Source: Halichondria panicea
Taxonomy: Eukaryota > Porifera > Demospongiae > Suberitida > Halichondriidae
Assembly: GCF_963675165.1 (NCBI RefSeq)
Contig: NC_087387.1
Location: 5,482,990-5,546,989, forward strand
Direction of reading: 5' to 3'
DNA length: 64,000 bases
The notes under the pieces are model-generated. The model had not been told where the DNA came from. It ran no database searches and saw only the letters and a list, made by a program, of their open reading frames with translations. The number at the start of each line of letters is the position of its first letter. The stretch's first letter is position 1. Positions 1,049 to 62,176 of the stretch are shown here, piece by piece. Both the position numbers and the translations under genes were made by a program.

Positions 1049-2504
1049 ATGCAAGCCACAAGCTTATTTTTGTTGGTTGCTACTACTGCTATTGCCACAG
1101 CTCAGTCATCAGGTATATAGTTATGTGTATTATACTTACATGTATATATACTGCACATTCTGAATTATGCAATGCAGAGTGTTTCAATGGACAACTTCGT
1201 GAATCTAATACAACATCACGTTTACTTGAGTACTGTTATGATGGAGAATGGAGATGGATCTGTTTCAAAGGTAGTCAGGGGGATACTGATATGTCAGTGG
1301 CTGCTTGTACAGAACTGGGCTACAGTGATTCTGGTAAGATAACTATCGTAATGGGAATAAATTAACGTGGTTTTTCGTTTTAAAGATAACTGCAATAAGA
1401 TTAGTGTGTACAGTAAATCCTCCAAAAGTGTTCATTCTGAGTGACTGCAAAGAACCAGGACTAACCAATTGCACAGTGACACCTAGTAACAATTGTGCTA
1501 CCCCATGCTTTGTTGGGAGTTTACAAACGTGCAACACAGGTTGAGTCATGATTTTCGGAGTGAATATTCACCTGTATAACAATTTTGAATTTCAGTCAAC
1601 TGTGCTCTTGGAGAGATAAGACTGGTGGGTGGATCTACTGACAGAGAGGGACGAGTGGAGGTGTGTGTGGGTGGTAGGCGATGGAGAACAGTTTGCACTG
1701 GCAGTCAAGAACTGGCAGGAGCTGTTTGTTCACAAATAGGATACATCTTTGAAGGTAACACAGTAGATTGATAAAATAATGTGCTGTGAATTGTATAAGA
1801 TCCACAAACAGGAAGCATTGTGGCAGTAAGTAACACATTTCCTCCTGGAGCATTTCCAGAGTATAGCCTCGAGTGCACACAACTAAGCAATGGATCATGG
1901 CACTGTAGTCCAGTTGAACAACAATGTGACAGATTTGTGGAGCTTGGAGTTGTTTGTATAAACTATGAGGAGTATTATGAACGTTCAAGGAACAGCACAC
2001 TATCTACACACTTTCCTACTAGTTCAGAAGGTAAATTAGATTTTATGCGCGCATGCTGAAGCAGGAATATCACTTTAATTCACAGAAACGTATTCTACTC
2101 CTTGGGAAACAACTACTAACAATGGCAGCTCAACTTCACTGCTAGCAGTAATTGCTGTTTTTGTTGTCCTACAAGCGGCTACAATGATTGCACTAATCAG
2201 CACATGTATTGTCTTTAAGAGGAAACTCAAACAAAAGTAAAGCTGTAACAAACTATAATACATTAGTATCCTAAGCATGCTTGTGTTCTTATAATTAATA
2301 CTTGTACATATATATAGGGTGACCATGGCTACACAACAAGCTGACCTATCCTATGCAGTGGTTGGAGGTACACAAACTGAAATGAAAATCGATCCCAACA
2401 TAGCTGCTAACCCAGCGTACGAGGCAGTCAAGTGTGACCAGGAGGACCATACCTACGATGTCGTCAGTGAGGGGGCGGCTTCAAGACAGAGGAGAGGCAA
2501 TTGA
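1049..2504 (+). pseudogene. SRCR receptor unit A (tail A), exon-3 acceptor damaged
   Basis: Seven exons: 1049-1112 (signal peptide MQATSLFLLVATTAIATA), 1178-1333, about 1384-1539, 1596-1754, 1812-2030, 2086-2236 (TM) and 2318-2504 (tail). Exons 4-5 form an SRCR domain (IRLVGG, EGRVEV, W-R-TVC, AGAVCSQIGY, six further Cys). The tail has LSYAVV, NPAYEAV and HTYDVV. All ectodomain introns are phase 1 and the tail intron phase 2. The exon-3 acceptor reads TTTTAA where paralogues have TTTTAG, and the next AG, 2 nt downstream, shifts the frame. Exon 3 is 156 nt, so skipping it would keep the frame and give a receptor lacking half of domain 1. Hence damaged but perhaps still expressed. Nearly the same unit recurs as I (26362). 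Confidence 0.7.
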
Positions 2505-2639
2505 CATTAACTTTAAATAATTGTTTTAGAAGGTTGTATAGCTCCTTATATTTACTAGCCAAGAGTATTAGAAACTAGAAGGCTCATTGTGACGACACGT
2601 ATATAGAGGAGAGAATCTTACATGTGTAATAGTGAACAT

Positions 2640-2772
2640 CAGAGGAGGTCCGACATGCGTGCACGAATCACTACAAGTTTAGTGCATTTGGCTAGAACTT
2701 TATCACGTGACCACAATGACATAAATACACTGAACTTGTAGTGATTCGTGCATGCATGTCGGACCTCCTCTG
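2640..2772. mobile_element. 133-bp MITE with 9-bp target duplication, copy 1
   Basis: Terminal inverted repeats of about 45 bp begin CAGAGGAGGTCCGACATG and end with its complement. Flanked by AGTGAACAT (2631-2639) and AGTGGACAT (2773-2781), a 9-bp target duplication with one difference. The corresponding flank of unit F (about 18036) lacks the element and reads as an empty site. A 9-bp duplication with long TIRs fits a Mutator-like (MULE) non-autonomous element. Confidence 0.8.
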
Positions 2773-3119
2773 AGTGGACATTGCTGCATCGTGTACAGGT
2801 CATGTGTACATTCTACCAGACGGTAGTCTTACCCCCCCCCCCTCCGTAATAGCCTGCATAATTATGGCAATTATAATAATATTATTATGTATAAATTCAT
2901 ATTCAGTATTTGTTTAGACGTGCAAAATAAACATTGGTTAGGATGTTATTCTGATAGGATGGCCAGGGAAATCAACAGTAGCAAAATTAATGTCTCTATT
3001 TGGCAAGAGGGACGAACATAAACTACTGATCATGGAAGCAGCATGCACTTTATGAGTTGCATGAATATATAAGTTTGAAACAATAACACAAAGGTAATCT
3101 CCGTGATCCTTTATCTTAC

Positions 3120-3626
3120 CTCCAAGGTCGTTAGGTTCAAACACCCCGGATGTATCCCGGACCTAGTCTGGTATTCGCCAAGTCAGCAGAGCTGCTCGAG
3201 ACGGACTACACACTGGACTAGTGGTGTAGAACTGAGTGAAGACGAGACCTTGCTCGGCTAGTAACTGGATGTGGGGGGTATTGGAGGTGGGGTGTCCGTA
3301 GGGAGTGAGGTCACCATAGCCAAGCTATGTGGGGGGGAGGATATTGATAAAAGTACGGACATTAGAATTAGCAATAATTTTGCTATAGTAATTTTGCTAT
3401 AATTATAGGCATGCTATAATTATGGATAGCTATTCATTAGCTAAAAGCACAGTAAAACAATTTCACATCCACAAATATTGTTTATGGATTTTACCACACT
3501 GCATGATGTACAGTATATACACCCATATCATCAGAACCATGTTGGGTGGTGTGGTGGCCATGACGATAAGATAGGAGACTAGCAGTAAGAGCACCAGAAA
3601 TTTAAACTCTTCAGTCGAGGCAACGT
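3120..3626 (-). pseudogene. Arylsulfatase 5' fragment, copy S1 (decayed)
   Basis: Minus-strand remnant of the first two exons of an arylsulfatase. The exon 2 equivalent is 3120-3324 ([19 protein letters not shown], then [11 protein letters not shown]) with an intact donor GTAAG at its end. Two one-base indels relative to the copies at 18351 and 28392 break it. Exon 1 (about 3527-3626) keeps a MATTPPN-like segment but its ATG is ACG and the FLVDD part is deleted. No later exons are present. Confidence 0.75.
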
Positions 3627-4118: not shown

Positions 4119-4418
4119 ATGAAAAGAGTGACCATAATGACTGTTCACCGTGCAGTAATCATTGGAATACTGTTGTCAATCACTTCAACTATTGGCACTA
4201 ATCAACAAGGTATAATTATAATTATAAGTACACTAAGTAGAAAGAAGTTTACTTTGCAAATGTAGAGTGCTTCAATGGACAAGTTCGTAGACTTGTTTCT
4301 AATCTCCTTGAGAATTGCTACAATGGAGAATGGAGATTGATCTGTTTCTTGGAAAGTCAGTGGAGCGATCAGATAGAAAAAGCTACTTGCGGACAATTGG
4401 GTTATAGTGATTCTTTTG
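4119..4418 (+). pseudogene. SRCR receptor unit B, first two exons only
   Basis: Exon 1 (4119-4209) encodes a signal peptide starting MKRVTIMTVHRAVIIG and exon 2 (4266-4418) the first half of domain 1 (ECFNGQVRRL, GEWRLICF, LGYSDSFG), both open and with good GT/AG sites, joined in phase 1. Exon 1 of unit C follows 140 bp downstream, so no domain 2, TM or tail belongs to this unit. It resembles the 5' ends of units O and U. Splicing from exon 2 into unit C exon 3 would be in phase and could create a chimeric transcript; that is speculation. Confidence 0.7.
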
Positions 4419-4559
4419 GTAATTGACTACGTACATGAGCCCACTACCAAAATTTTGTACAGTAACAGGAAATTCACTGCACATCCTGTGGAAAATTCAT
4501 TTGGAAGTTTAGAATAACCATGCACTGCATGTGCATGCAGTCATTGTACATTTATTAAT

Positions 4560-5944
4560 ATGCAAGTCACAAGCTTATTGCTGTTGGCTGCCACTACAGC
4601 TATTGCTACAGCTCAGCCACCAGGTATAGCTATGTATATGTACTGAATTAGACTACATTCTGAATCATGCAATGCAGAGTGCTTCAATGGACAACTTCGT
4701 GAATCTAATTCCAATGTACTTGAGTATTGTTACTATGGAGAATGGAGATTGATCTGTCATGATGACAGCCAGTGGAACATTGATAAGACAGTGGCTGCTT
4801 GTACACAACTGGGCTACAGTGACACTCGTGAGTTAGCTATATATCATTAATGGTGGCTGAATAAGTGTTATCCTTATTTAGGGATAAATGTAAATCACAC
4901 AAGGTGTGAAAGTTATCCAATAAAAGCTGTCACATTTAGTGACTGCAACGGATCAGGACTAATAAATTGCACAGTGACACCCACAGACGAATGTGGTCGC
5001 TTCTGCTCTCTTGTGACTTCAGGACAGTGCAACACAGGTTGGTCATGACTGTCAGAAGTGGTTTTACGGCTTGAAACAATTTTGCATTCAGCTAACTGCA
5101 CTGATGGAGCCCTAAGACTGGTGGGTGGATCCACCGACAGAGAGGGACGAGTGGAGGTGTGTGTGGGTGGCAGGCGATGGAGGACAGTTTGCACTGGCAG
5201 TCAAGAACTGGCAGGAGCCGTTTGTTCACAAATGGGATACATCTTTGAAGGTAACAGAGGATCAATAACATTGTTCTCTATACAATTAAAAATCTCTATA
5301 CAGGAAGCTCAGTGGGAGTAACCAACTCATTTCCTCCTGGAGCATTCCTTGAGTACAGACTAAACTGTGCACAACTAAGCAATGGAGCATGGCTCTATAG
5401 TCTAGTCAAAGAACAATGTGACAGCTTTGCGGAGCTTGGAGTTGTTTGTAAGAACTATAAAGATCAACCAGACATCCAAGTTATTACACAGTTGCCTACC
5501 ACATCATGTGCCCCTCAAAGCAAAGAATATCTTGGATGTATATGTACTAATAATTCCACCACCTTTACTGCTGGTAGTGGTGTACTGGCAACTCTCCCAC
5601 AAGCCGTAATTGCTGTTCTTGTTGTCCTACAAGCGGCTACAATGGTTGCACTAATCAGCACCTGTGTTGTCTTTAAGAGGAAACGCAAACAAAAGTAACA
5701 AAACTATAATGGTATTAACATTAGTAACCTAAACATTGCATGCTCTTGTGGTCTTAATACTCTATAATATAGGGTTACCATGGCTACACAACAAGCTGAC
5801 CTAACATTTGCAGTGGTTGGAAGCTCACAAACTGAAATGAAGATCGACCCCAACATAGCTGCTAACCCAGCATACGAGGCAGTCAAGTGTGACCAGGAGG
5901 ACCACACCTACGATGTCGTCAGTGAGGGGGTGGTTTCAAGATAG
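4560..5944 (+). CDS. SRCR receptor unit C (tail A, intact frame)
   Basis: Six exons give an open 363-residue type I membrane protein: 4560-4623 (signal MQVTSLLLLAATTAIATA), 4678-4827, 4882-5037, 5092-5250, 5304-5694 and 5773-5944. Domain 1 runs from ECFNGQLRES to CNTG. Domain 2 has LRLVGGSTDREGRVEV, WRTVC, AGAVCSQMGY and ELGVVC. Exon 5 continues through stalk and TM helix without the intron seen in A and F. The WHCSPV motif is changed to WLYSLV, losing one Cys. In the tail the first motif is LTFAVV, so that tyrosine is absent while NPAYEAV and HTYDVV remain; a CAG-to-TAG change ends the tail five residues early. The donor completes AAG-TAA, so intron retention would give a tail-less form. Role as a surface recognition receptor is inferred. 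Confidence 0.8.
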
Positions 5945-8911: not shown

Positions 8912-9431
8912 GAGGCACGGTGGCAGCACTCAACTCATTTCCCTCTGGAGCATTCCCAGAGTACAGACTAGACTGTAGACAACAAACCAATGGAGCATGG
9001 CACTGTAGTCCAGTTGAAGAACAATGTGTCGGCTTTGTGGAGCTTGGAGTTGTGTGTAATAATGAAAATATAACGAACATGCGAGAAACTACACAGTTGC
9101 CTACTACATCATTTACTGACAATTTCACCACCTGTACTGCTGGCAGTGGTGTACTGGCAACTCTCTCACTAGCCGTAATTGCTGTTCTTGTTGTCCTACA
9201 AGCAGCTACAATGGTTGCACTAATCAGCACATGTGTTGTCTTTAAGAGGAAACTTAAACAAAAGTAGCTGTGGCTAACAAAGTAATAACAAAACAATAAC
9301 AATAAACAATAATACAGTATCCTAAGAATTGCTTGTGTCTTAATATTATTAGGATGACCATGGCTACACAACAAGCTGACGCAAAGGTTGGAAGCTCACA
9401 AGCTGAAATGAAAATCGACCCCAACATATAG
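8912..9431 (+). pseudogene. SRCR receptor unit D, 3' part only
   Basis: Exon 5 (8912-9263) is open: second half of SRCR domain 2 (SFPSGAFPEYRLDC, WHCSPVEEQC, ELGVVC), stalk and TM helix (AVIAVLVVLQAATMVALIST) in one exon, ending at donor GTAGCT. The tail exon (from 9353) has lost the LTYAVV segment by a small deletion and stops at 9429-9431 after a 2-nt insertion; the downstream motif-coding sequence (NPAY, TYDVV) is still recognisable to 9535 but out of frame. Exons 1-4 are missing (see 6171), so this is a pseudogene. Closest relative in the window: unit H. Confidence 0.8.
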
Positions 9432-9812
9432 CTGCTAACCCAGCATACGAGGCAGTCAAGTGTGGACCAGGAGGACCACACCTACGATGTCGTCAGTGAG
9501 GGGGTGGCTTCAAGACAGAGGAGAGGAAATACCATTGAATTATAACTTTTGATGACTGTGAAACATTCATAACAACTGAACACAAGAATATTCAGTGAAA
9601 ATAGTATGGTGATTGACGATTGACAAAATTAATGTATTACCTTTTAATTAGCAGTCAACATCAACATAGCAAGCTCATTTTATGCATGCATAGAAATAAC
9701 ATGCATGCAGTAGTAAATTAAATTAATGTGAGGTTTAACAACATCCTGTGTAAAAAATTGGCCAAATCTAAAGTTTGGAAGTTTAATAGCCATGCAATGT
9801 GATGACATCAAA

Positions 9813-12036
9813 ATGCAAGTCACAAGCTTATTGCTGTTGGCTGCCACTACTGCTATTGCCACAGCTCAGTCAACAGGTATATAGTTATGTGTGTATATAT
9901 ACTGCACATTCTGAATTATGCAATGCAGAGTTTTTCAATGGACAACTTCGTGAATCTAATTCAACACTTAGTTTACTTGAGTACTGTTATGATGGAGAAT
10001 GGAGAAGGATCTGTTCCAGAGACAGTCAGTGGGATACTGATATGTCAGTGGCTGCCTGTACAGAACTGGGCTACAGTGACTCTGGTAAGTCAACTATTCG
10101 TATGGTGGATGAATAAATTAATGTGGTTCTTCCTTTTAGAGGCAACTAAAATTCAAACACATTGTTCAAATCAATATCCTCCAATAAAAGTGTTCATTTT
10201 AAGTGACTGTAAAAAACCAGGACTAACCAATTGCACAGTGACACCCAGTGACGCTTGTGTTACCTCATGCTTTGTTGTGAGTTTACGAACGTGCAACACA
10301 GGTTGGTCATGATTTTCGGAGTGAATATTCACCTGAAACAATTTTCAATTTCAGCCAACTGCTGTTGGAGAGATAAGACTGGTGGGTGGATCTACTGACA
10401 AGGAGGGATGAGTGGAGGTGTGTGTGTGTGGGCGGCAGGAAATGGAGGACAGTTTGCACTGGCAGTCAAGAACTGGCAGGAGCTGTTTGTTCACAAATGG
10501 GATACATCTTTGAAGTTAACACAGTGGATTGATAAAATAATGTGCTGTGAATTATGATCCACAAACAGAAAGCACTGGGGCAGTAAGTAAATCATTTCCT
10601 CCTGGAGCATTCCCAGAGCACAGACTGGACTGTACACAACTAATCAATGGAACATGGCACTGTAGTCCAGTTGAACAACAATGTGACAGCTTTGTGGAGC
10701 TTGGAGTTGTTTGTATAAACTATAAGGAGTATTATCAACGCTTAAGGAACAGAACACTATCTACACACTTTCTTACTCGTTCAGAAGGTAAATTAGCTGC
10801 ACATGTATGCTGAAGCAGCGATCACTTGAATTCACGGAAACGTATTCTACTCCTCGGGAAACAACTACTAACAATAGCAGCTCAACTTCACTGCTAGCAG
10901 TAATTTCTGTTCTTGTTGTCCTACAAGCGGTTAAAATGATTGCATTAATCAGCACCTGTGTTGAAAGAACACAAACAAAAGTAGGAACTTATAATGCAAC
11001 ATAAGCATTAGCCTCGTTCCCTGGCCTTACTTTTTCTTGCTGTTGTCACTGTTCATCCATGAAAGACATAGTGCTAGTGAGGCAGCAAAGAAAGAAATGG
11101 GCGTACAGTTAAGAAAAAGTAAGGCCTGGTTTGGGAAATCGCGTGATCCACAAGGATTTTTATGAACGTGGGCGATATGTAGCCCACAATCGTGACGTAA
11201 GGTATTCTCCCACGCATTCAGAGTTAATAAGACTGTACTGAGACAACCACCAAGCTGTGCTGCAAGTCAGATCAGAGAACCAGCGTGGCCAGCTCTGGTG
11301 GCAGTAGCTACCTGCTATATATGATAATGATGACTAACTTAAGCTATTCTTGATCTATACTAGCATGTAGAAAGACACAAGAAAAGGTAATAGTCTGATA
11401 GAATCTGAACACACAATCTAGACTAGTAGATCATCTAGCTAAGCCTAAGGTATATAGCTAGCTATAGTGCTTGCAAACTTCCAGTTCCAAGTCCATGTCC
11501 AGCTTGCATGCTGCAGGCAAAGTTTTATTAGTCATAGATATCTGTGTGGGCAGTCCAACATCTCTAGCTCAGCATGCCCACGCTCATTTTCACCCTTCTA
11601 CCACCCTTCTACCCTCACGCGACTTCCCGATACAGGCTCTCCTTTTTCCTAACTCTACGTCTATTTCTTTCTTTATTCCTCTAATTAACTACCGTATTTT
11701 ATCTCATTGAACGATTAAGACAGTATTTTATCTTATTGAACGATTGTGATAAAGAACAGAAAAAGGAGAGCCTGTGTAGAGGCTACATAAGCATTGCCTG
11801 TGTTGTCTTAATACCAATGTGTTCTTATAATACTTGTACATATATATAGGGTGACCATGGCTACACAACAAGCTGACCTAACCTATGCAGTGGTTGGAGG
11901 TACACAAACTGAAATGAAGATCGACCCCAACATAGCTGCTAACCCAGCGTACGAGGCAGTCAAGTGTGACCAGAAGGACCACACCTACGATGTCGTCAGT
12001 GAGGGAGTGGCTTCAAGACAGAGGAGGGGCAATTGA
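9813..12036 (+). pseudogene. SRCR receptor unit E (tail A), multiply disrupted
   Basis: Exons: 9813-9876 (signal peptide), 9929-10084, 10140-10301, 10355-10515, 10569-10787, about 10838-10980 (TM) and 11850-12036 (tail). Domain 1 is open, though its first Cys is Phe (EFFNG). Exon 4 carries a 2-nt deletion, a CGA-to-TGA stop and a GT-repeat expansion, and its donor is lost (GAAGTTAAC). The TM-exon acceptor is CGG instead of CAG and the end of the TM exon is deleted. The last intron is enlarged by about 0.8 kb of unrelated sequence. The tail exon itself is perfect (LTYAVV, NPAYEAV, HTYDVV). Confidence 0.8.
11004..11780. repeat. Insertion in the last intron of unit E with inverted repeats
   Basis: Sequence absent from the last intron of all other units (about 70 bp there). 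It contains an inverted pair CCTGGCCTTACTTTTTCTT (about 11021) / AAGAAAAAGTAAGGCC (about 11112), another pair AGGCTCTCCTTTTTC (11633) / GAAAAAGGAGAGCCT (about 11759), and a short tandem repeat of GTATTTTATCT-ATTGAACGATT around 11693-11750. Probably more than one nested non-autonomous element. No convincing coding potential. Confidence 0.5.
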
Positions 12037-12990: not shown

Positions 12991-13240
12991 TAGTAAAGAG
13001 AGTACCAACTCATCACAAACAACAATAAGTGTCACATGCCCTAAACACACAACTCATGTTTACCCATACTAATGTGTTGTTCCTACTAACGTTGGTTTCT
13101 GCAATCTCCACACAGTGTTGATGCAGGTATACTATCTCAACAAGCAATCAGAGCTATATACACAACAGGACATCAACACACAGAGGTCACCCTACACAAT
13201 CTACACTGGTAGGCTAAACAGAGGTGATAAAGTTAATTGC
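12991..13240 (+). pseudogene. Tail B fragment
   Basis: The end of a type B TM exon (ACAAACAACA then a mutated donor ATAAGTG) and the start of a tail B exon from about 13117 (VDAG, TQQDINTQR, TGRLNRGDK). The tail is cut off after about 40 codons and no upstream exons are present. It is the first appearance of tail B in the window, far from the tail B units at 52-63 kb. Confidence 0.65.
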
Positions 13241-21638: not shown

Positions 21639-21955
21639 ATGAAAGTGCTTAGCATACTACTGCTATCTATCTTTACTTCAGTTGTTTGTAGGAGTATTAT
21701 TAACGCTCAAGGGACAACACACTATTCTATTATATACACAGTTTACCTAGTTTAGAAGGTATATCTGCGCATGCTGAAGCAGCAATCGCTTGAATTCACA
21801 GAAACGAATCCGGACACAACTACTAAAAATGGCAGCTCAACTTCACTGCTAGCAGTAATTGCTGTTCTTGTTGTGTTACAAGCGGCTACAATGATGGCAC
21901 TAATCAGCACCTGTGTTGTCTTTTTGTGTTGTCTTTTTTTTTTCTTTTTTTTTTT
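21639..21955 (+). pseudogene. SRCR receptor unit G, internally deleted
   Basis: A signal-peptide start (ATG at 21639, MKVLSILLLSIFTS) is fused directly to the middle of an exon 5 (GTTGTTTGTAGGAGTATTA), so nearly the whole ectodomain is lost. A TM exon follows from about 21804 (NGSSTSLLAVIAVLVVLQAA) but runs into a T-rich tract after CVVF instead of KRKLKQK. No tail exon. Confidence 0.7.
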
Positions 21956-27780: not shown

Positions 27781-27908
27781 CATTGACTATTGTTTTAGAA
27801 GGTTGTGTAGCTCCTTATATTTACTAACCAAGAGTGTTAGAAACTAGAAGGCTCATTATGACGACACGTATATAGAGGAGAGAATCTTACATGTGTAATA
27901 GTGAGCAT

Positions 27909-28893: not shown

Positions 28894-28934
28894 TATTTTG
28901 TTGCTGATGATGTGCATTCTTCAAAAGCCTCCCC

Positions 28935-35240: not shown

Positions 35241-35310
35241 ATAAACAGTATTTTACTTCACTATACATCCCATATATATTCAACTGAGGCACTAATCACT
35301 CCAGTGGCAT

Positions 35311-35412: not shown

Positions 35413-35447
35413 TAATAATGAATTTCATAAACAGAATATTATTACAG

Positions 35448-43475: not shown

Positions 43476-43805
43476 TGTTCCATATTCCACTTACACATTA
43501 GCATATTCTCAGTTCTTGAATACTTGGTAGTATAAATAAAAATAACTGATGGTGCAAACGACCGCTTGTTTCCTTAGATGAACGAACATCCATATTGTGT
43601 CGGATTATTGATACCTTAAATTAAGCTATAGCATAATACTCTATAATTATAGCTGGAGAGTGAACAAATAATTGTTTAAGGTACTTTTAAGTGGCAATTT
43701 TCAATAGGAAGTAAATCATGTAACTTATAAGATTGTCATTTCCTGTAAAATTGTATGACCTATAAACAGATGCCTACAAAGATCACTCTAGCTCTTATAG
43801 TCAAC

Positions 43806-47091: not shown

Positions 47092-49096
47092 ATGAGAGTT
47101 TTGAGCACACTACTGCTATCTATCGTCACTATTGTTTCAACTCAACAACAACAAGGTACGTATGCTATAGACATCCTATAATTATACATGCACGGCTTTA
47201 ATCATTATGACAGAATGTTTGAATGGACAACTTCAACAGACTATTTCTAATATCCTGGAGTACTGTTACCATGGAGAATGGAGATGGATCTGTCTCCAAG
47301 ACAGTCAATGGAACCACGAGAGGACAATATTTGTATGCACACAACTGGGTTACAGTGGATCTGGTAAGTTAGTTACCAATTAAGTGAGAAGTAGATAGCT
47401 TGTATGTATTTTATAATTATAGTAAGAGCAAATGGACCGTGTGGGACTACTCAAAGAAAAGTTGTCACACTGACTAACTGCAGTGAACCAGGACAGCATC
47501 TCACAGAATGCATGGTCACGGCCAGTGACAACTGCATTACCTGTTTTTATTTGTCTTCAACATGTTTCCCAGGTTGGTGTATAATGTTGCCAGCATGCTT
47601 GCGACGATATACATTACTATGCCTCGGTGCGCATGCGCAAGCGAGGTATACAGTAGTGTGTTTGTATGTCTCTGTGTGTGTGTGTGTGTAGACTGTTTCA
47701 GCTGCTCAAGGATCAATGAAGTGCAAGTAAGAGTTTCTATAGGCTTCTAGTCATGTTTTCTTGGCTTGGTATTTGTGGATTTGCAAAATAAAGCTTCGTT
47801 CTCGAGTTATGCCTAGTTTTGCTTACTTGGAATGCCATTGCAGCCTTTTCAGTAGCAAAACTTGTTCACGAGTGTTGCTACTCTACTTAGTAGTTAGCTC
47901 TGCACTAGAACGCTAGCTATTGGTAGCTGCAAGAGTGAGAAGAGAGCTGCAGCAAGGCTCTGATCTGCTGACTTGCAGCCTGATTAATTTTAGACTTTAA
48001 CTTTTGGCATCGATCGTTATTAATAACAATCATCGTCGATCATTACCCACTCTTTGAGTTTCCCTGTGATTCTGGATTCTGCATGCAGCAAAATTCATCA
48101 TGATAATTTTATAATTAATATGTGTATAAAAGCTAGCTATTAGTAGCTTTATGTTTTATGTAGCTTTGGTACCTCTATCGAGGCATCAGCACCCGCGGTG
48201 CTTTCATTTATTTCAGCTGTCTGCACTGATGGAGAGATAAGACTGGTGGATGGATCCACTGACAGAGAGGGACGAGTGGAGGTGTGTGCAAACAGGCGAT
48301 GGAGGACAGTTTGCACTGGCAGTCAAGAACTGGCAGGAGCTGTTTGTTCACAAATGGGATACATTTATTTTGAAGGTAACGGAGGATCAATTGTGACAAT
48401 TCTCATTAGTTACCATCTACAGGAGGCACGGTGGCAGTAACTAACTCATTTCCTCCTGGAGCATTTCCGGAGTACAGACTAGACTGTACACAACTAAGCA
48501 ATGGAACATGGCACTGTAGTCCAGTTGAAGAACAATGTGACAGCTTTGTGGAGCTTGGAGTTGTTTGTAAGAACTATGAAGATCGGTGCAGTGAATGTTC
48601 TAGGACTAGTACACTGTCCACCAACATGCAAATTACTACACAGTTGCCTACTAGTTTACAAGGTAATTTAAAACTGCAAAACGCATAACTTGAATTCCAT
48701 GCATATATACAGAAATGTATTCTACAACTAATAACAATGGCAGCTCAACTTCACTGCTAGCTGTAATTGCTGTTCTTGTTGTCCTACAAGTGGCTACAAT
48801 GATTGGACTAATCAGCACGTGTGTTGTCTTTAAGAGGAAACACAAACAAAAGTATGAGCTAATACAAAGTATAACATTAAGCATATACATGGCTTGTGTC
48901 CTTAAATAGGGTGACCATGGCTACACAACAAGCTGACCTAACCTATTCAGTGGTTGGAGGTACACAAACTGAAATAAAGATCGACCCCAACATAGCTGCT
49001 AACCCAGCGTACCAGGCAGTCAAGTGTGACCAGGAGGACCACACCTACGATGTCATCAGTGAGGGGGTGGCTTCAAGACAGAGGAGAGGCAATTGA
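47092..49096 (+). CDS. SRCR receptor unit R (tail A, intact)
   Basis: Seven exons, frame open for 362 residues: 47092-47155 (signal MRVLSTLLLSIVTIVS), 47214-47363, 47423-47572, 48217-48375, 48423-48662, 48713-48851 and 48910-49096. Domain 1 ECLNGQLQQT to CFPG. Domain 2 IRLVDGSTDREGRVEV, VCANRRWRTVC, AGAVCSQMGY, WHCSPVEEQC, ELGVVC. TM AVIAVLVVLQVATMIGLIST. Tail LTYSVV, NPAYQAV, HTYDVI. Intron 3 holds repeat R copy 3, absent in unit S. Exons 1-3 and the upstream 200 bp are almost identical to unit S, but exons 5-7 are of the other class. The last donor is GTATGA, so intron retention here gives a 19-residue extension and not an immediate stop. Confidence 0.85.
47619..48207 (+). mobile_element. 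Repeat family R, copy 3, in intron 3 of unit R
   Basis: 589 bp from ATGCCTCGGTGCGCATGCGC to CACCCGCGGTGCTTTCAT. Unit S has the uninterrupted intron (ATATACATTATTTATTTCAG at about 53444), giving an empty site and dating the insertion after the R/S duplication. The branch/acceptor region TTTATTTCAG is preserved immediately after the insertion. Confidence 0.85.
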
Positions 49097-49140
49097 CATA
49101 CAAAACTTTGAACTTTTATTTTAGCATTAGCATCAACTTA

Positions 49141-51018: not shown

Positions 51019-51215
51019 ATGCAGGTCACAAGTTTAGCTGCCACAACTGATTATTGCTACAACTCACAGCTCAGCCACCAGGTATTAGTGGCTGTGCAAT
51101 TATCTTCTCAATTATGGAACTATTTCTGATCTCTTGGAGTACTGTTACAATGGAGAATGAAGATGAATGATCTGTTCCAGAGACAGCCAGTGGCTACTTG
51201 TACAAGAACGTTTAG
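51019..51215 (+). pseudogene. SRCR receptor 5' remnant behind unit R
   Basis: A degraded signal-peptide exon (ATGCAGGTCACAAG at 51019) and a decayed exon 2 (GATCTCTTGGAGTACTGTTAC near 51129; GACAGCCAGTGGC near 51182) with deletions. No further exons in order. Confidence 0.6.
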
Positions 51216-51601
51216 CTGAAATAAATATTTTAGCGATCGCACCTAAAAATTACGTGACAGGAATACAGGAGAATACATAGTACAGACAGACAGAGTGGTA
51301 AACGCATCATTATACATAATTATCCTGAATACATGTAATATTTCCCACCCATGCAAAATCATACAGGGCTGAAGCCTCCCCAAACTAGTCCTCCCTTATT
51401 AGTTTGTGGTAAGATCGCCAACGTCAGAGCCACCTTACTTGTCTAAAGTTGCCTACACAGTGGCAGATCCCGGAAAAAGAAAGGGGGATTCCAAACCAAC
51501 TAGTACGCAGAACGAAGGCGAAACATTTTCTGGGGGGGGGGAGGTTATGCTTACTTCCGGTCATACGTTGTGCAGAAGACTAGGGAAAATCCCGTTCACA
51601 G

Positions 51602-52120
51602 GATATAGTGTCCTATAGCTGTGTTATTATTCTACTCAGGAGAGGACAGACTGTGCACAAACAACAGTGAGTGGTCCTAAACACATACCTCATGTTTACC
51701 CATACTAATGTGTTGTTCTTACTAGATGTTGTTTACTGCTACTCCCACACAGTGTTGATGCAGGTACTATCTCAACAAGGAGCAATCAGAGCTACACACA
51801 ACAGAACATCAACACACAGCTCTACGCTGAAGCCACTCCTCCTGATACAACCTACAGTAGACTGATAAACAGACGGAGGAAATTGCTACCTACGATTACG
51901 CTGATCCCAACCAGATAAGAGTAGAGCATTCCCAAGCAACCAATCCACCACCATGCAGTGAGTGGTGAAGCTATTGTGAGAGAAGAGGAGTTCTACATTG
52001 CTGAGGATCACACGTACGCAGCTGTCAATAAAAAAAACCAAGCCAAAGTTGGATGAATCTGATAGAGAGGGAGAGAGTGAAGCCCCACCTCCTTTTGTCA
52101 GCACCCTGGCTGAAGTGTAG
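51602..52120 (+). pseudogene. Type B TM/tail remnant
   Basis: A broken end of a type B TM exon (about 51602-51666, LLRRGQTVHKQ-coding) and a tail B exon from 51753 (VDAGTISTRSNQS ...). A 10-nt deletion after TTYSRL shifts the frame, the same deletion as in unit U. An inserted TGCA (CCACCATGCAGTG) breaks it again. The NKK-K-rich end and STLAEV codons are still visible to about 52120. Confidence 0.75.
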
Positions 52121-52927: not shown

Positions 52928-54592
52928 ATGAAAGTTTTGAGCACACTACTGCTATCTATCGTCACTATTGTTTCAACTCAACAACACCAAGGTACGTATG
53001 CTATAGACATCCTATAATTATACATGCACGGCTTTAATCATTATAACAGAATGTTTGAATGGACAACTTCAACAGACTATTTCTAATATCCTGGAGTACT
53101 GTTACCATGGAGAATGGAGATGGATCTGTCTCCAAGACAGTCAATGGAACCACGAGAGGACAATATTTGTATGCACACAACTGGGTTACAGTGGATCTGG
53201 TAAGTTAGTTACCAATTAAGTGAGAACTAGATAGCTTGTATGTATTTTATAATTATAGTAAGAGCAAATGGACCGTGTGGGACTACTCAAAGAAAAGTTG
53301 TCACACTGACTAACTGCAGTGAACCAGGACAGCATCTCACAGAATGCATGGTCACGGCCAGTGACAACTGCATTACCTGTTCTTATTTGTCTTCAACATG
53401 TTTCCCAGGTTGGTGTATAATGTTGCCAGCATGCTTGCGACGATATACATTATTTATTTCAGCTCTCTGCACTGATGGAGAGATAAGACTGGTGGATGGA
53501 TCCACTGACAGAGAGGGACGAGTGGAGGTGTGTGCTAACAGACGATGGAGGACAGTTTGCACTGGCAGTCAAGAACTGGCAGGAGCCTTTTGTTCACAAA
53601 TGGGATACATTTTTGAAGGTAACAGAGAATAATTAATTAATATACTATGGATATAATGATCTATACCAACAGCAAGTGCCGTCGCACTACTACCAAAAAC
53701 ATTTCCTCCTGGAGCATTCCCAGAGTACAGACTAGACTGCACACAACTAAGCAATAGAACGTGGCACTGTAGTCCAGTTGAAGAACAATGTGACAGCTTT
53801 GTGGAGCTTGGAGTTGTTTGTAAGAACTATGAAGATCTATACAATGATTGTTCAAGGAACTGTACAACGTCAATATTGCCAGTAACTACTAAACAGTCAC
53901 CTACTAACAAGCAAGGTAAACTATAGAGATTACACTCCACTACATTATAGTACTTAATTCGTGTCAGTAACCATTCCTACTGATGACGCGAGTTTTGACA
54001 ATTCCACCACCATCATTGCTGGCATTGGTGTACTGGTGGTTCTATTACTAGTTGTATCAGTTGGTTGGATAGTGTCCTGTGTTATTCTACTCAGGAGAGG
54101 ACAGACTGTGCACAAACAACAGTGAGTGGTCCTAAACACACACCTCATGTTTACCCATACTAATGTGTTGTTCTTACTAGATGTTGTTTACTGCTATTCC
54201 CACACAGTGTTGATGCAGGTACTATCTCAACAAGGAGCAATCAGAACTACACACAACAGGACATCAACACACAGCTCTACGCTGAGGCCACTCCTCCTGA
54301 TACAACCTACAGTAGGCTGAACAGAGGGGATAAACAGACGGAGGAAATTGCTACCTACGATTACGCTGATCCCAACCAGATAAGAGTAGAGTGTTCCCAA
54401 GCAACCAACCCACCACCAGTGAGTGGTGAAGCTATCATGAGAGAAGAGGAGTTCTACATTGCTGAGGATCACACGTACGCAGCTGTCAATAAGAAACCCA
54501 AGAAGAAAAAGAAGCCGAAGAATGCAGAATCTGATGGAGAGGGAGAGAGTGAAGCCACGCCTCCATTTGTCAGCACCCTGGCTGAAGTGTAG
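52928..54592 (+). CDS. SRCR receptor unit S (tail B, intact)
   Basis: Seven exons, frame open for 433 residues: 52928-52991 (signal MKVLSTLLLSIVTIVS), 53050-53199, 53259-53408, 53463-53618, 53673-53915, 53968-54121 and 54208-54592. Domains as in unit R (VCANRRWRTVC; AGAFCSQMGY; WHCSPVEEQC). The stalk holds DNSTTIIAGIG and the TM is VLVVLLLVVSVGWIVSCVILL followed by RRGQTVHKQ. Tail B has QLYAEA, TTYSRL, ATYDYADP, EFYIAEDHTYAAV, then NKKPKKKKK and an acidic patch, ending STLAEV. The donor gives CAG-TGA if unspliced, i.e. a tail-less form. The 5' half is a recent duplicate of unit R, the 3' half belongs to the B class. Confidence 0.87.
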
Positions 54593-54835: not shown

Positions 54836-55258
54836 ATGACAGTTTTGAACATATATACTGCTATCTATAATTATGATAGTGTCCCTATTACTTCAACTCA
54901 ACAACAACAAGGTATGTAAACCATACACCTACAGGCTTTGAATTTCCATGAATTGTTTACAGAGTGGACAACTTCGAGAAACTACTTCTACTTCTCTGGA
55001 GTACCTTTACCATGGAGAATGGACATTCATCTGTCATGATGACAGTCAATGGAACCAGGAGAGGACAATATCTGTATGCACACAACTGGGTTACAATGAC
55101 TCTGGTGGTAAGTTAGTTATCAAGTGAGGAGTAGAATAGCTTGTGTATGGAATAGCGAGCCATGTGGGACTATTCAAATGAACCAGGACAGCATCTCACA
55201 GAATGCATGGTCACAGCCAGTGATAGCTGCACTAGAGTAGACTACCTCAGACGTCAAT
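54836..55258 (+). pseudogene. SRCR receptor unit T, 5' pseudogene
   Basis: Exon 1 (54836-54911) starts MTVLNIYTAIY, no longer a convincing signal peptide. Exon 2 (from 54963) lacks 8 nt of ECLNG, which shifts the frame. The exon 3 remnant is truncated (CATGTGGGACTATTCAAATGAACCAGG, ending ACTAGAGTAG). The fragment at the window end (63564-63998) is its closest relative and stops at the same point. Confidence 0.7.
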
Positions 55259-55830
55259 AATCGTTAGCTCAAAGTGCGTATAATGCACAAACAAGACGAG
55301 ATTCTAACTAACTGCACACACCAATAGGTGGCTATGGGACTACTAACCAGCGAACATTTGGATGGGCCAAATCGCTTCCAGTTGGAGCTGTGATCACTAT
55401 AAAAACTGTCCAATCATTTGATTTTCGGCGAGTGTAATCTTATAGCTAAATCTAGTTAAATGTGTTGCTGCATGAACTGTCACTCTGCATGTTGATTAGC
55501 TGATTGTTATTTGTTTGAGTGCATTATAATCAAGACTTGAACGACAGTCTTTTAAATGTGAATAGACTATGAAAAGGTACACTAAACATGCATTTACAAC
55601 TCATGTATATTCTCCAAGACCCTCCCCTTCCTTCTCTGCATGACAGCAGGTAATAACATGAACTACCGCAACTAGTATTTCCTGTTGACATGATTATATC
55701 AAATGCTGTACCCAACTTTTAGGCTCGCATTACAATTATCTACTTCTCTCTAAGCTGAAATAAACAAAGCAGTATAAAAGAGTGATTCACTGTGACAAGC
55801 GTGACTGTTCACTGTGCAGTAATAATTGGA
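55259..55830. other. Spacer ahead of unit U
   Basis: No gene recognised. The later half (CTGTTGACAT near 55683, TAAGCTGAAATAAACAAAGC near 55750) matches the sequence in front of units B and O, so it is likely the upstream region of this subfamily. TATAAAAGAG at 55773 is a plausible TATA box. Confidence 0.45.
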
Positions 55831-57212
55831 ATGTTGTTAATCATTTCAACTATCGGCACTGCTCAACAAGGTATGTTCATCAAGTAATTCTATAGTACAT
55901 GAGTTTACTGTGTAAATACAGAGTGCTTCAATGGACAAGTTCGTAAACTTCATTCCAATCTCCTTGAGTATTGTTACAACGGAGAATGGAGATTGATCTA
56001 TTACTCAGAGAGTCAGTGGAGTAGTTGGGAAATGACAAAGCCTGTGTGTGCACAGCTGGGTTACCAGGATTTTTTTGGTGATAATAATATTGACAATAGC
56101 GTGTAAGAAGTATACACAGGTCTGCATATTTCTAATAGGAATGATGCGAGGGGAAAGTCGCAGTGGTGCAGGAAAATTAGTCACTCTGAGTGAATGCAAT
56201 GGACCAGGATTAACAGGATGCATAGAGACGCCTAGTGACGACAACTGTACTGAGTGCTCTCTTGTGTTTCTACTGTGTACCGCAGGTTCATCCAATATAC
56301 TGTCATTCTCATGCAGAAAAAAAATGTATTATACAGCTGAATGCACTGATGGAGAGATAAGACTGGTGGGTGGATCTACTGACAGAGAGGGACGAGTGGA
56401 GGTGTGTGTGGGAACTTCTCTAACTGTATGGAGGACAGTTTGCATTGGCAGTCAAGAACTGGCAGGAGCCGTTTGTTCACAAATGGGATACATCTTTGAA
56501 GGTAACAAGGATCAATAACATTGCTCTTAATACCAATAGCTCTACCTACAGAGAGTATTGTGGCAAATAACTCATTTCCTCTTGGAGCATTTCCAGAGCA
56601 CAAACTAAACTGTACACAAACCAATGAAGTATGGCACTGTAGTCCAGTTGAACAACAATGTGACAGCTTCGTGGAGCTTGGTGTTGTTTGTATAAACTAT
56701 GAGGAGTTTTATGAACGTTCAAGGAACAGCACACCATCTACACAGTTGCTTCCTATAGAATGCACCCCCAGCAATGAAAGAGGCACTACTAGTTCTACAT
56801 GTGCTGACAATTCCACCACCTTCATTGCTGGCATTGGTGTACTGGTGGCTCTGTTACTAACCCTAACCCTAACCCTAACCCTAACCCTAGCTGTATCAGT
56901 TGGTTGGATAGTGTCCTGTGTTATTCTACTCAGGAGAGGACAGACTGTGTACAACCAACAGTGAGTGGCCCTAAACACACACCTCATGTTTACCCATACT
57001 AATGTGTTGTTCTTACTAGATGTTGTTTACTGCTATTCCCACACAGTGTTGATGCAGGTACTATCTCAACAAGGAGCAATCAGAGCCACACACAGCAGGA
57101 CATCAAGACACAGCTCTACGCTGAGGCCACTCCTCCTGATACAACCTACAGTAGACTGATAAACAGACAGAGGAAATTGCTACCTACGATTACGCTGATC
57201 CCAACCAGATAA
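55831..57212 (+). CDS. SRCR receptor unit U (truncated tail B, telomeric repeat in TM)
   Basis: Exons: 55831-55870 (the usual upstream ATG is lost; ATG at 55831 gives a short hydrophobic leader MLLIISTIGTAQQ), 55922-56077, 56139-56285, 56337-56501, 56552-56960 and 57047-57212. Domain 1 has lost a Cys (LIYYS for LICYS). Domain 2 has an insert (GTSLTVWRTVC) shared with unit O. In the TM region (CCCTAA)5 adds ten residues (TLTLTLTLTL) at 56860-56889 in frame. The tail B exon carries the 10-nt deletion after TTYSRL, so it ends INRQRKLLPTITLIPTR and lacks the later tyrosines; the unused remainder to about 57420 is still recognisable. Probably expressible but altered; a decaying gene is the alternative. 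Confidence 0.65.
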
Positions 57213-57420
57213 GAGTAGAGTGTTCCCAAGCAACCAACCCACCACCAGTGAGTGGTGAAGCTATCGTGAGGGAAGAGGAGTTCTACATTTCTGAGGATCA
57301 CACGTACGCAGCTGTCAATAAGAAAGCCATGAAGAAAAAGAAGCCGAAGAATGCAGAATCTGATGGAGAGGGAGAGAGTGAAGCCACGCCTCCTTTTGTC
57401 AGAACCCTGGCTGAAGTGTA

Positions 57421-58058: not shown

Positions 58059-59768
58059 ATGCAAGTCTCAAATTTCATTCTGCTATTAACTGTTGTCACC
58101 ACTGTCACAGCACAACCAGGTATACAATACTTATGACTGTAGATCAGAGCAACACTCTGAGAATTGCGTACAGAATGTTTAGACGGACAAATTCGTCTTC
58201 CTGAAGTAACAGACACACTTCTTGAGTACTGTCACCATGAAGAATGGAGATGGATCTGTCATGATGAAAGTCAGTGGAATATCGAGAGATCAGTAGCTAC
58301 CTGTGCACAATTGGGATATTCGGATCAATTTGGTAAGTAAGATGTGTCCTAAAGTTATACAAAGAGTAAAGTACCTCTGCTTAGTTTATAAGATCAAATT
58401 AATAGGACTAGCAACCAGGAATTCTCAGAATGGTTCAAGAAGAGTAGTCACTCTGAGTGACTGCAATGGACCAAGACTAACAGAGTGTATGGTGACACCC
58501 AATGACAGCTGCAACTCTCTTGTGCATCTATTATGTTCCAAGGGTTAGTATAACTATTTGTAGAGATGCATAATGTTATGCACTACTAAATGTACATACA
58601 TAATAAGTTACCTGTGCTGCTGGTAGAGAGACAAGACTGGTGAATGGATCCACTGACAGAGAGGGACGAGTGGAGGTGTGTGTGGTTGGTCCTGCCAGTC
58701 GATGGAGGACAGTTTGTACTGGCAGTCAAGAACTGGCAAGAGCTGTTTGTTTACGAATAGGAATTGAAAGTTTAGTGTTAGAAGGTGATGATCATAAATT
58801 ATTATAATTATAAGCCATTTATTTAAATCAATGACTGCTGATAGCACAAGTACATATATAATTATATACAGGAAGCACTGTGGCAGTAACTAACTCATTT
58901 CCTCCTGGAGCATTTCCAGAGCACAGCCTGGAGTGCAAGCCGGCATCAAATGGAGATTTGCGCTGTAGCCCAGTTAAAGGATGTGACAGCTTTGTGGAGC
59001 TTGAAGTTATTTGTAAGAACTACGAAGATCTACGCAATGAATGTTCTAGGACTAGTACACTGCCTACATTGTCAACTAGAGCACATGCAAATACACTGTT
59101 GCCTAATACAACAAGTGGCCCTATCAAATCAGACTTTGACAATTCAACCACCATCATCATTGTTGATAATTCCACCACCTTCATTGCTGTCATTGGTGTA
59201 CTGGTGGCTCTGTTACTAGCTGTATCACTTGGTTGGATAGTGTCCTGTGTTATTCTACTCAGGGGAGGACAGACTGTGCACAAACAACAGTGAGTGGTCC
59301 TAAACACACACCTCATGTTTACCCATGCATACTAATGTGTTGTTCTTACTAGATTGTTGTTTACTGCTATTCTCACACAGTGTTGATGCAGGTACTATCT
59401 CAACAAGCAATCAGAGCTACACACAACAGGACATCAACACACAGCTCTACGCTGAGGCCACCCCACCTGATACTACTGCAACCTACAGTAGACTGAAGAG
59501 AAGTGATAAACAGACGGAGGAAATTGCTACCTACGATTATGCTGATCCCAACCAAATAAGAGTAGAGCTTTCCCAAGCAACCAACCCACCACCAGTGAGT
59601 GGTGAAGCTATCGTGAGAGAAGAGGAGTTCTACATTGCTGAGGATCACACATACGCAGCTGTCAATAAGAAAGCCAAGAAAAAAAAGAAGCCGAAGAATG
59701 CAGAATCTGATGGAGAAGGAGAGAGTGAAGCCCCGCCTCCTTTTGTCAGCACCCTGGCTGAAGTGTAG
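58059..59768 (+). CDS. SRCR receptor unit V (tail B, intact)
   Basis: Six exons, open for 446 residues: 58059-58119 (signal MQVSNFILLLTVVTTVTAQ), 58174-58332, 58406-58543, 58608-58784, 58872-59289 (half of domain 2, stalk and TM together) and 59381-59768. It is the most diverged intact member: domain 2 reads TRLVNGSTDREGRVEV, VVGPASRWRTVC, ARAVCLRIG, and LRCSPVKGC. The stalk is long and Thr/Asn-rich with a repeated DNSTT. TM VLVALLLAVSLGWIVSCVILL. Tail B is complete (TATYSRL, TYDYADP, FYIAEDHTYAAV, KKAKKKKKP, STLAEV). Exon 4 has acceptor ATAATAAG, weaker than the usual TTTCAG. Donor of the last intron gives CAG-TGA. Confidence 0.85.
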
Positions 59769-59989
59769 ATAAGGGTGACGGAACATTGAATGTGAACTGA
59801 ACATCGTACAGGCTGTAAGACGTCCATAGTAGTAGTATAGAGAGAGTGAATACACAAAATCAGTTATTTATATAATTATGTATACTGTATTACGCTAAAA
59901 TGTGATAGTTCACTTCAGTTTTAAATTCATACATTGCCATTTCTTGACAAAAGCATATTTCCCAATGGTGTCTGGAGGTACCACTGTAA

Positions 59990-60283
59990 AAGGTAATACA
60001 CGTGATAACAATTCCACCACCTCCATTGCTGGCATTGGTGTACTGGTGGCTCTGCTACTAGCTGTATCAGTTGGTTGGATAGTGTCCTGTGTTATTCTAC
60101 TCAGGAGAGGACAGACTGTGCACAAACAACAGTGAGTGGCCCTAAACACACACCTCATGTTTACCCATACTAATGTGTTGTTCTTACTAGATGTTGTTTA
60201 CTGCTATTCCCACACAGTACGTACGTGTTGATGCAGGTACTATCTCAACAAGCTATCAGAGCTACACACAACAGGACATCAAC
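59990..60283 (+). pseudogene. Type B TM/tail fragment W
   Basis: A TM-coding stretch (DNNSTTSIAGIGVLVALLLA, RRGQTVHKQ) ending at donor GTGAGT (about 60132), then the start of a tail B exon (near 60230, VDAGTISTS-like) broken after ACAGGACATCAACGCC. An insertion (GTACGTAC) disrupts the tail acceptor region. No ectodomain exons. Confidence 0.7.
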
Positions 60284-60575
60284 GCCTTGGATTTTGCATA
60301 ATAATTTATGAGCAAAATGATAAATTGTCTCGTGTCATAGTTAAAAATGAAAAAGTCTACTCTATATACTGCTATCTAGCAATACAATGATTAAAGTGAT
60401 TACATCAGCAATGATATGCATCAAGTGCATTTCTCATAGAGCCGAAACTACTGGCTATAGCTTACAGGAACAGGAAATTACTGCAGTGGTAAATATACGT
60501 AAGGTGTATACATCCTGTACACAATTGCATGATACTTGAATTCAACTTGAATAGCCACTGCGTACAGCCATCAAA

Positions 60576-62176
60576 ATGCAAGTCACAAGCTTATTGCTGT
60601 TGGTTACTACTGCTATTGTTACAGCTCAGTCATTAGGTATATAGTTATGTGTGTACTCAATAGACCACATTCTGAATATTGCAATGCAGAATGCTTCAAT
60701 GGACAACTTCGTGAATCTAATGCAACATTTGTTGAGTACTGTTATGATGGAGAATGGAGACAAATCTGTTCCAGAAACAGTCAGTGGGATACTAATATGT
60801 CTGTGGCTGCCTGTACAGAACTGGGCTACAGTGAATCTGGTAAGTTAACTATCGTAATGGGAATAAATTAACGTGGTTTTTCGTTTTAGAGATAATTACA
60901 ATTAGAACAGTGTGTCTAGATGAAAATCCTCTAAAAGTGTTCATTCTGAGTGACTGCAAAGAACCAGGGCTAACCAATTGCACAGTGAAATCTAGTGACA
61001 TTTGTACTACCCCATGCTCTGTTGGGAGTTTACGAATATGCAACACAGGTTGGTCATGATTTTCAGAGTAAATATTCACCTGAAACAATTTTGAATTTCA
61101 GCTAACTGCACTGATGGAGAGATACGACTGGTGGGTGGACCCACTAACAGAGAGGGACGAGTGGAGGTGTGTGTGGGTGGCAGGCGATGGAGGACAATTT
61201 GCACTGGCAGTCAAAAACTGGCAGGAGCCATTTGTTCACAAATGGGATACATATTTGAAGGTAACAGAGGATCAATGACATTGATCCAAAATTATACTTC
61301 TCTAACAGGAAGCGCTGTGGCAGTAACTAACACATTTCCTCATGGGGCATTTCCAGAGTACAGACTAAACTGTACACAACTAAGCAATACATGGCACTGT
61401 AGTCTAGTTGAACAACAATGTGACAGCTTTGTGGAGCTTGGAGTTGTTTGTAGGAGCAATGAAGATATATACAATGAATGTTCAATTTGCAACACACTAT
61501 CTCCACTGTGTACTAATATGGGAGAAACAAATTTGCTTACCACATTAGGCACCACCGATAATGAAAGAGGCACTACACGTGCTGGAAATTCCACCACCTT
61601 TATTGGCATTGGTGTACTGGTGGCTCTGTTACTAGCTGTATCAGTTGGTTGGATAGTGTCCTGTGTTATTCTACTCAGAAGAGGACACATTGTGCACAAA
61701 CAACAGTGAGTGGTCCTAAACACACACCTCATGTTTACCCATACTAATGTGTTGTTCCTACTAAATGTTGTTTACTGCTATTCTCACACAGTGTTGATGC
61801 AGGTACTATCTCAACAAGGAGCAATCAGAGCTACACACAACAGGACATCAACACACAGCTCTACGCTGAGGCCACCCCTCCTGATACAACCTACAGTAGA
61901 CTGAACAGAAGTGATAAACAGACGAAGGAAAGTGCTACCTACGATTACGCTGATCCCAAACAGATAAGAGTAGAGCTTTCCCAAGCAACCAACCCACCAC
62001 CAGTGAGTAGTGAAGCTATCGTGAGAGAAGAGGAGTTCTACATTGCTGAGGATCACACGTACGCAGCTGTCAATAAGAAAGCAAAGAAGAAAAAGAAGCC
62101 AAAGAATGCAGAATCTGATAGAGAGGGAGAGGAGGAAGTCCCGCCTCCTTTTGTCAGTACCATGGCTGAAGTTTAG
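60576..62176 (+). CDS. SRCR receptor unit X (tail B, intact)
   Basis: Six exons, open for 436 residues: 60576-60636 (signal MQVTSLLLLVTTAIVTAQ), 60690-60839, 60890-61048, 61102-61260, 61309-61705 and 61792-62176. Domain 1 (ECFNGQLRESN, EYCYDGEWRQIC, CTELGYSES, LTNCTV, CNTG) is of the same kind as tail A units A, E and I. Domain 2 IRLVGGPTNREGRVEV, WRTIC, AGAICSQMGY, WHCSLVEQQC, ELGVVC. TM VLVALLLAVSVGWIVSCVILL. Tail B complete, ending STMAEV. Thus a unit-A-like ectodomain coupled to tail B. The donor again forms CAG-TGA. Confidence 0.86.

Follow-up and report, generated by a model that had tools for sequence, protein, structure and literature searches.

The question raised by the 64,000-nucleotide stretch of Halichondria panicea DNA analysed here (the window, C11:5482990-5546989, on a contig of 6,808,682 bases within an assembly of 131,455,214 bases and 39 contigs) is what is meant by a tandem array of genes for SRCR receptors whose members end in either of two unrelated cytoplasmic tails. 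The joining of related ectodomains to two different tails is the strongest feature of this locus, and is absent from the earlier note on this DNA, which had described a clustered, high-turnover SRCR family with tyrosine-bearing tails; that description holds, for a tandem cluster larger than the window and with many broken copies. The sequence evidence, on balance, modestly favours type I membrane receptors, encoded by many clustered genes of one family, that work as paired receptors.

The genes follow one plan, in which a signal exon (phase 1) precedes a first SRCR domain (SRCR1) spread over two exons and a second (SRCR2) likewise spread over two (phases 1-1); the linker and transmembrane (TM) helix are either fused to the last SRCR exon or housed in an exon of their own, and a single tail exon follows, entered in phase 2. 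There are two unrelated tail exons, tail A of about 61 and tail B of about 127 amino acids. All three of the window proteins tested score above the Pfam cut-off for SRCR (PF00530; E 1.2e-8, 2.1e-12 and 5.5e-7), each with two SRCR stretches at E up to 1, and in two of the three SRCR_2 also exceeds its cut-off over domain 1, while the best relative of solved structure in the PDB is the neurotrypsin SRCR domain (E 1.4e-6). We take these domains, each split over two exons, to belong by rule to group A. The most hydrophobic 21-residue stretch is uncharged in 21 of 21 open-gene proteins, by a measure that itself favours that outcome. The shared plan of signal peptide, two SRCR domains, TM helix and tyrosine tail put forward in the earlier note is borne out by exon matches where it had described them, by the Pfam matches and by seven open spliced models.

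Units were counted in 170 kb (C11:5430000-5599999), which contain 71 unit clusters on the + strand; an older subfamily upstream of 5.478 Mb accounts for 21 of these. Of the other 50, 30 have the complete set of exon types, SRCR1 through tail, and 21 of these 30 are fully open, five with tail A and 16 with tail B. Six of the 30 (units 9928, 23498, 26362, 38024, 55921 and 72245) have matches split by frameshifts or stops and were excluded before modelling; splice-phase modelling of the remaining 24 left incomplete models at 35447, 43927 and 96664, and in the 21 others open frames cross six or seven exons with matching phases. Grouping into units was mechanical, splice sites were picked by phase and consensus, so that individual borders may be misplaced; the choice of signal exons and linker joins free of stops somewhat favours openness. 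The receptor gene plan is nevertheless not chance, given 21 units open across so many phase-matched exons and mean ratios of nonsynonymous to synonymous divergence (dN/dS) in the tails of 0.35 (A) and 0.42 (B). The window itself contains 26 units, namely 25 + strand clusters and one inverted copy; seven are open and 19 broken or partial, close to the earlier estimate of at least six open genes and some twenty wrecks. Every exon type is found in 14 of the 25, of which seven are open and seven (35447, 43927, 9928, 23498, 26362, 38024 and 55921) are not. The open window genes, named by first coding base, are:

1025..2504, + strand: gene 1049, tail A, with ATG at 1049 or an upstream ATG at 1025 chosen by script; signal exon 1025/1049-1112, SRCR1 1178-1333 and 1405-1539, SRCR2 1596-1754 and 1812-2030, TM 2086-2236, tail 2318-2504
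4560..5944, + strand: gene 4560, tail A with LTFAVV, in which F replaces the tyrosine of the immunoreceptor tyrosine-based inhibition motif (ITIM)
15580..17041, + strand: gene 15580, tail A; ectodomain partner of tail-B gene 67951 beyond the window
47092..49096, + strand: gene 47092, tail A; 5' block partner of tail-B gene 52928
52928..54592, + strand: gene 52928, tail B; partner of 47092
58059..59768, + strand: gene 58059, tail B; ectodomain subtype V
60576..62176, + strand: gene 60576, tail B; ectodomain nearest that of tail-A gene 1049

Among the 21 open genes the tails fall into two sharply separate classes, with 93% identity within A, 93% within B and 49% between them. SRCR1 follows no such division: its identity is 66.8% across tail types (up to 99%), 70.6% within A and 69.3% within B. 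Near-identical ectodomains carrying different tails within one cluster, the mark by which paired receptors are recognised, are found in two strong pairs. Genes 47092 (A) and 52928 (B) are 98.6% identical over 735 bp comprising the upstream flank, the signal exon and SRCR1 with its introns; downstream, SRCR2 is 83% identical and the tails are then unrelated. The second pair, 15580 (A) and 67951 (B), shares 92.2% identity over 1,087 bp, the similarity ending in the linker just past SRCR2. For three of the five open A genes the nearest SRCR1 belongs to a B gene, with no A gene in the top two; of the remaining two, one gives a tie and one prefers an A gene by one point.

A tree of 31 SRCR1 regions from open and broken units (10 A and 21 B, nine tail-less units being left out; the row B51119 has a long branch) needs seven changes of tail, all seven of them required by branches with good support (bootstrap range 7-8). 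Shuffled tail labels average 8.7 changes and are as low as observed in 57 of 500 (A) and 51 of 500 (B) shuffles; tail type is thus distributed almost at random over the ectodomain tree. That A and B lineages parted once, at an early point, was considered and is contradicted by the seven forced changes. Five ectodomain subtypes could be sorted from the tree and the signal sequences, four of which occur with both tails, subtype IV with tail A only through one broken unit; subtype V occurs with tail B only. Ectodomain subtype and tail type are largely decoupled.

The older neighbouring array, at C11 5.442-5.475 Mb, consists of nine units (read unspliced, one B-like tail being cut by a stop) with tails in the order B A B A B A B A B. 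This strict alternation is one of 126 possible orders of five B and four A, and the simplest explanation is that a block of two genes was duplicated repeatedly. In the second older couple the first block of the A unit is closest to its B neighbour (90.1%), the next A unit being at 89.7%. The sequence NPAY(D/Y)AV-x8-YETV is kept in all four older A-like tails, spaced like the NPAYEAV-x8-YDVV of the window. Both subfamilies therefore have two tail classes on related ectodomains, the near-identical pairs being those of the window's cluster.

The two tails differ in the motifs that surround their tyrosines. Tail A bears LxYAVV, NPAYEAV and HTYDVV; in the query copy all three tyrosines stand in YxxV (shuffle p 0.0024), and YxxV-x8-YxxV has the spacing of a relaxed immunoreceptor tyrosine-based activation motif (ITAM; shuffle p 0.015). 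The NPxY that had been read in NPAYEAV is above chance (shuffle p 0.0046) and was recovered in five of five open A genes; it occurs in none of the 16 open B tails. Tail B has usually seven tyrosines (6-9 among open genes) and a lysine-rich stretch; two of the seven tyrosines lie in YxxPhi, which is not enriched (shuffle p 0.24). A strict ITIM, [SIVL]xYxx[ILV], is present in four of five open A tails and one of 16 open B tails, so that the earlier label of ITIM-type tails can at most be kept for tail A and has to be given up for tail B, where YxxPhi is also at chance. In ten diverged, mutually related tails conservation is 0.64 in the tail-B tyrosine columns and 0.28 in the others (permutation p 0.004), although one of the seven columns is kept in none of the ten.

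These same motifs could instead be sorting signals, with YxxPhi read by AP2 and NPxY by adaptors of phosphotyrosine-binding (PTB) type, giving two sorting routes rather than two signals, in uptake receptors by whose SRCR domains a filter feeder would catch bacteria or debris. The three YxxV of the tail-A query copy and the NPxY of every open A gene speak for this, as does the binding of microbes by SRCR proteins, reported for DMBT1; the NPAY of tail A, however, lacks the preceding F of the low-density lipoprotein (LDL) receptor signal, and the seven spaced tyrosines of tail B, only two in YxxPhi and mostly conserved in diverged tails, exceed what sorting needs, which leaves a role in uptake doubtful. 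The tails might otherwise link the cytoskeleton and adhesion kinases to SRCR domains that bind an aggregation factor or each other. An SRCR aggregation receptor has reportedly been found in Geodia, and NPxY tails occur in integrins; but the Geodia protein is said to contain many SRCR domains together with SCR domains rather than two SRCR domains, and the high copy number, the many broken copies and the swapped tails are unlike a single adhesion receptor. An adhesion or aggregation function has, in our judgement, a slim chance of being correct.

Selection was assessed on the 21 open genes, where mean dN/dS across pairs is below 1 for every module, and highest among the domain exons in the second SRCR1 exon (0.76 over all 21, 0.79 over B). 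Within four subtype groups the ratio is 0.33-0.51 for the tail, and pN/pS is 0.92-1.54 for the second SRCR1 exon, with the linker, signal or TM likewise above 1 in single groups. Bootstrap intervals, computed in groups IV and V, lie below 1 for the tail (0.35-0.67 in V, 0.18-0.67 in IV) and include 1 for the second SRCR1 exon (0.65-1.64 in V, 0.78-4.10 in IV). The tails are under purifying selection. A tandem array expanding by neutral gain and loss, with no selected diversity and few copies expressed, would be in keeping with the 19 of 26 window units that are not open and with a second SRCR1 exon near 1 in all four groups; tail ratios well below 1, and 21 fully open units among the 30 with every exon type, tell against such drift and make it decidedly unlikely.

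Median distances among the B genes fall from 0.36 for signal plus SRCR1, through 0.15-0.19 for SRCR2, to 0.067 for TM, 0.045 for the TM-tail intron and 0.060 for the tail. The low intron distance indicates recent spread or homogenisation of the TM-tail cassette, and because of this recent copying the case for constraint on the tail rests on dN/dS and not on identity. Tail identity, tried as a sign of purifying selection, is weakened by the equally similar intron of the B genes.

If the family does consist of paired receptors, the two SRCR domains would bind ligands, the membrane-distal one having diversified into about five subtypes, and near-identical or closely related ectodomains would be fused to either of two unrelated TM-tail cassettes. 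The tail tyrosines would be phosphorylated and would recruit SH2 proteins, tail A (LxYAVV, NPAYEAV-x8-YDVV) attracting partners of SHP type with a probably inhibitory output, and tail B acting as a scaffold of many sites whose output differs. Unequal crossing-over and gene conversion would spread the cassettes and keep ectodomains common to both tail types. As a candidate partner, two SH2 matches (8406162-8406287 and 8405372-8405599) and a partial tyrosine phosphatase (PTP) match (8404573-8404827) are co-oriented within 1.8 kb on the minus strand of contig C3; from the positions of the matches, this seems to be an SHP-type phosphatase gene (SH2-SH2-PTP). Separately, contig C4 has a large array of tyrosine-phosphatase exon matches: most of about 150 listed, of 176 in all, lie there, many at 0.04-2.6 Mb.

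Several observations weigh against the paired-receptor reading. In the older array the partner is the closest ectodomain in only one of four A-B couples; in the other three (82.2%, 77.0% and 79.7%) other units are closer. The B-gene TM-tail intron is as similar as the exons (besides the tail median given above, means are 0.092 and 0.070). Positive selection on the ectodomains, sought overall and within subtypes, is not supported: the data establish a dN/dS above 1 for none of the domain exons, and for the second SRCR1 exon the intervals in groups IV and V include 1. The single strict ITIM of tail A is not above shuffles (p 0.10), is lost in open A gene 4560 and occurs in none of the four older A-like tails, while a canonical ITAM, Yxx[LI]-x6-12-Yxx[LI], as might be expected of an activating partner, is found in none of the 21 open tails. 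The ten diverged tails behind the conserved tail-B tyrosines are related to one another and their mid-alignment is uncertain; YxxPhi and NPxY also serve endocytosis; and the SH2 match at C3:8406162-8406287 is partial, with one stop in frame (perhaps an exon end).

The units of the window that are not open are:

4265..4411, + strand: orphan SRCR1 exon
8917..9530, + strand: orphan SRCR2 C-half, TM and frameshifted tail A
9813..12036, + strand: broken tail-A unit, stop and frameshift in SRCR2
13142..13231, + strand: tail B fragment
21828..21911, + strand: TM fragment
23498..25487, + strand: broken tail-A unit, matches split in SRCR1 and SRCR2
26362..27827, + strand: broken tail-A unit, SRCR1 C-half match split
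32300..33373, + strand: tail-A unit that lacks the signal exon and the first exon of SRCR1; a Ty3-type element precedes it
34224..34404, + strand: signal exon and cut-off SRCR1 exon
34499..35256, - strand: inverted broken SRCR1-SRCR2 copy
35447..36788, + strand: unit complete from SRCR1 to tail A, signal exon not found
38024..39631, + strand: broken unit with subtype IV ectodomain, TM-A and cut-off tail A
43770..45398, + strand: unit 43927, with ectodomain exons, TM without donor and tail B cut short
51019..52117, + strand: broken unit with tail B
54963..55248, + strand: orphan SRCR1 exons
55810..57418, + strand: tail-B unit with frameshifted tail
59989..60283, + strand: orphan TM-B and tail-B fragment
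62668..63324, + strand: orphan TM-B and frameshifted tail B
63684..64000, + strand: SRCR1 fragment crossing the window end

Orphan TM-plus-tail cassettes stand about 0.2-0.6 kb behind full tail-B genes, in the window at 59989-60283 and 62668-63324 and beyond it at 66887 and C11:5562122, and orphan SRCR1 exons also stand between genes; these cassettes and exons may possibly serve as alternative end exons or as donors in gene conversion. An intron of tail-A gene 47092 contains about 0.6 kb (window 47617-48200) that its tail-B partner 52928 lacks. Scattered between the receptor units, and antisense to them, are three copies of a sulfatase N-terminal stretch (Pfam PF00884; 18298-18684, 28216-28626 and 39860-40501, - strand), which were probably carried along by the duplications. 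A Ty3-type retroelement open frame with reverse transcriptase and integrase pieces (28911-32003) adjoins the unit that lacks its first exons, and an open frame at 45998-46786 matches DUF3504 and QRICH1 and is perhaps a Crypton-like recombinase relic.

The tandem cluster overruns the window as far as about C11:5.589 Mb, and its older relatives begin at 5.437 Mb. With 150 of 1364 candidates scored, SRCR exon matches number at least 213 genome-wide. At E up to 1, tail A gave 13 matches, all on C11, of which 12 lie at 5.479-5.532 Mb and the other at 5.342 Mb on the opposite strand, in a non-exhaustive search that left the older A-like tails and the cut-off tail of unit 38024 unreported. At the same threshold tail B gave 58, again all on C11: the interval 5.528-5.589 Mb has close copies and fragments, while diverged matches (38-57% identity) lie at 5.444-5.474, 5.976-6.006 and 6.65-6.78 Mb. 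At C11 5.99 Mb one unit, assessed by eye from its open frames, combines a B-like tail with SRCR-like exons, of which it has one set more than the window units. Three B-like tail frames with identical translations, at C11:5989657, 5992889 and 5996121, are spaced by exactly 3,232 bp and represent a fresh tandem triplication. Ten mirrored pairs of SRCR matches with equal scores and a constant coordinate sum (13432128) relate C11:6639772-6666863 to 6765265-6792356; in this second SRCR cluster at least 27 kb is thus duplicated in inverted orientation with no net indels, and the duplication is either recent or an assembly effect. Apart from the receptors, three Peptidase_C1 matches on contig C2 have CGASYAF at the active site. 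The active-site pattern gave eight matches, against two for the reversed control; six of the eight lie inside Peptidase_C1 matches, and the other three of these read CGSSYAF. The serine-for-cysteine change in CGASYAF is a mark of silicatein, which makes a demosponge host likely.

Receptors of comparable design are known elsewhere. The layout is like that of mammalian paired immune receptors, with near-identical outer parts and two different tyrosine-bearing inner tails. CD5 and CD6 also join an SRCR ectodomain to a tyrosine-phosphorylated tail that tunes signalling, but are single vertebrate genes with three SRCR domains. With these, and above all with WC1 (T19) of ruminant gamma-delta T cells, there is precedent for the combination that the earlier note had not known as a named family. 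In the portion of the WC1 account drawn on here (PMC2681482), WC1 is likewise a clustered SRCR multigene family with the membrane-distal domain the most diverse; its tails are of types I-III, with phosphorylated variants, and WC1-4 and WC1-9, with highly similar ectodomains and different tails, are likened to paired receptors. WC1, compared by description only, differs in having six or 11 group B SRCR domains, where the sponge proteins have two, each over two exons. It is the nearest precedent in both domain and layout.

In Hydractinia the Alr genes are clustered and their ectodomains are immunoglobulin (Ig)-like. Receptors of this allorecognition locus share ITIM/ITAM-type motifs with the present family (as cited in PMC12065747, seen in part), and differ in that an allorecognition role has been shown genetically. 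The same partial source describes the fester co-receptors (FcoR) of Botryllus as a multigene family whose tails bear ITIM, hemITAM or core YxxPhi motifs, the genes standing in adjacent pairs and the tail motifs being swapped by splicing; FcoR ectodomains are of Ig and sushi type, SRCR not being named in that text (PMC12065747). The logic of the sponge cluster resembles that of Alr and FcoR, and the family is assigned to none of WC1, Alr and FcoR. By analogy, a recognition or allorecognition role is plausible.

Expansion of SRCR genes in sponges is as such not new, judging from the sections of two papers used here: Amphimedon queenslandica has 296 SRCR genes, 158 of them in tandem arrays, though its largest case is nine genes on one scaffold and tails are not described there (PMC10855680), and the Halichondria panicea reference transcriptome has more than 600 SRCRs (PMC8242945). 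Neither "tyrosine" nor "ITIM" occurs in the main text of the Amphimedon paper (PMC10855680), and among the matches listed from the open-access literature no description was found of a sponge receptor with two swapped tyrosine tails or with ITIM/ITAM-type signalling. ITIM/ITAM signalling is said to be where allorecognition converges in cnidarians, tunicates and mammals (PMC12065747, in part). It is tempting to suggest that the cluster is a sponge self/non-self complex of paired SRCR receptors, in which one recognition module serves two competing tyrosine tails and new pairs arise as neighbouring genes exchange cassettes, but we hold this to be unlikely. If it were true, paired-receptor logic of ITIM type would reach back to the base of the animals. 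With its 21 open gene models, its two classes of tail and matched gene pairs such as 47092/52928, the locus makes the use of tyrosine-tail paired receptors by sponges directly testable.

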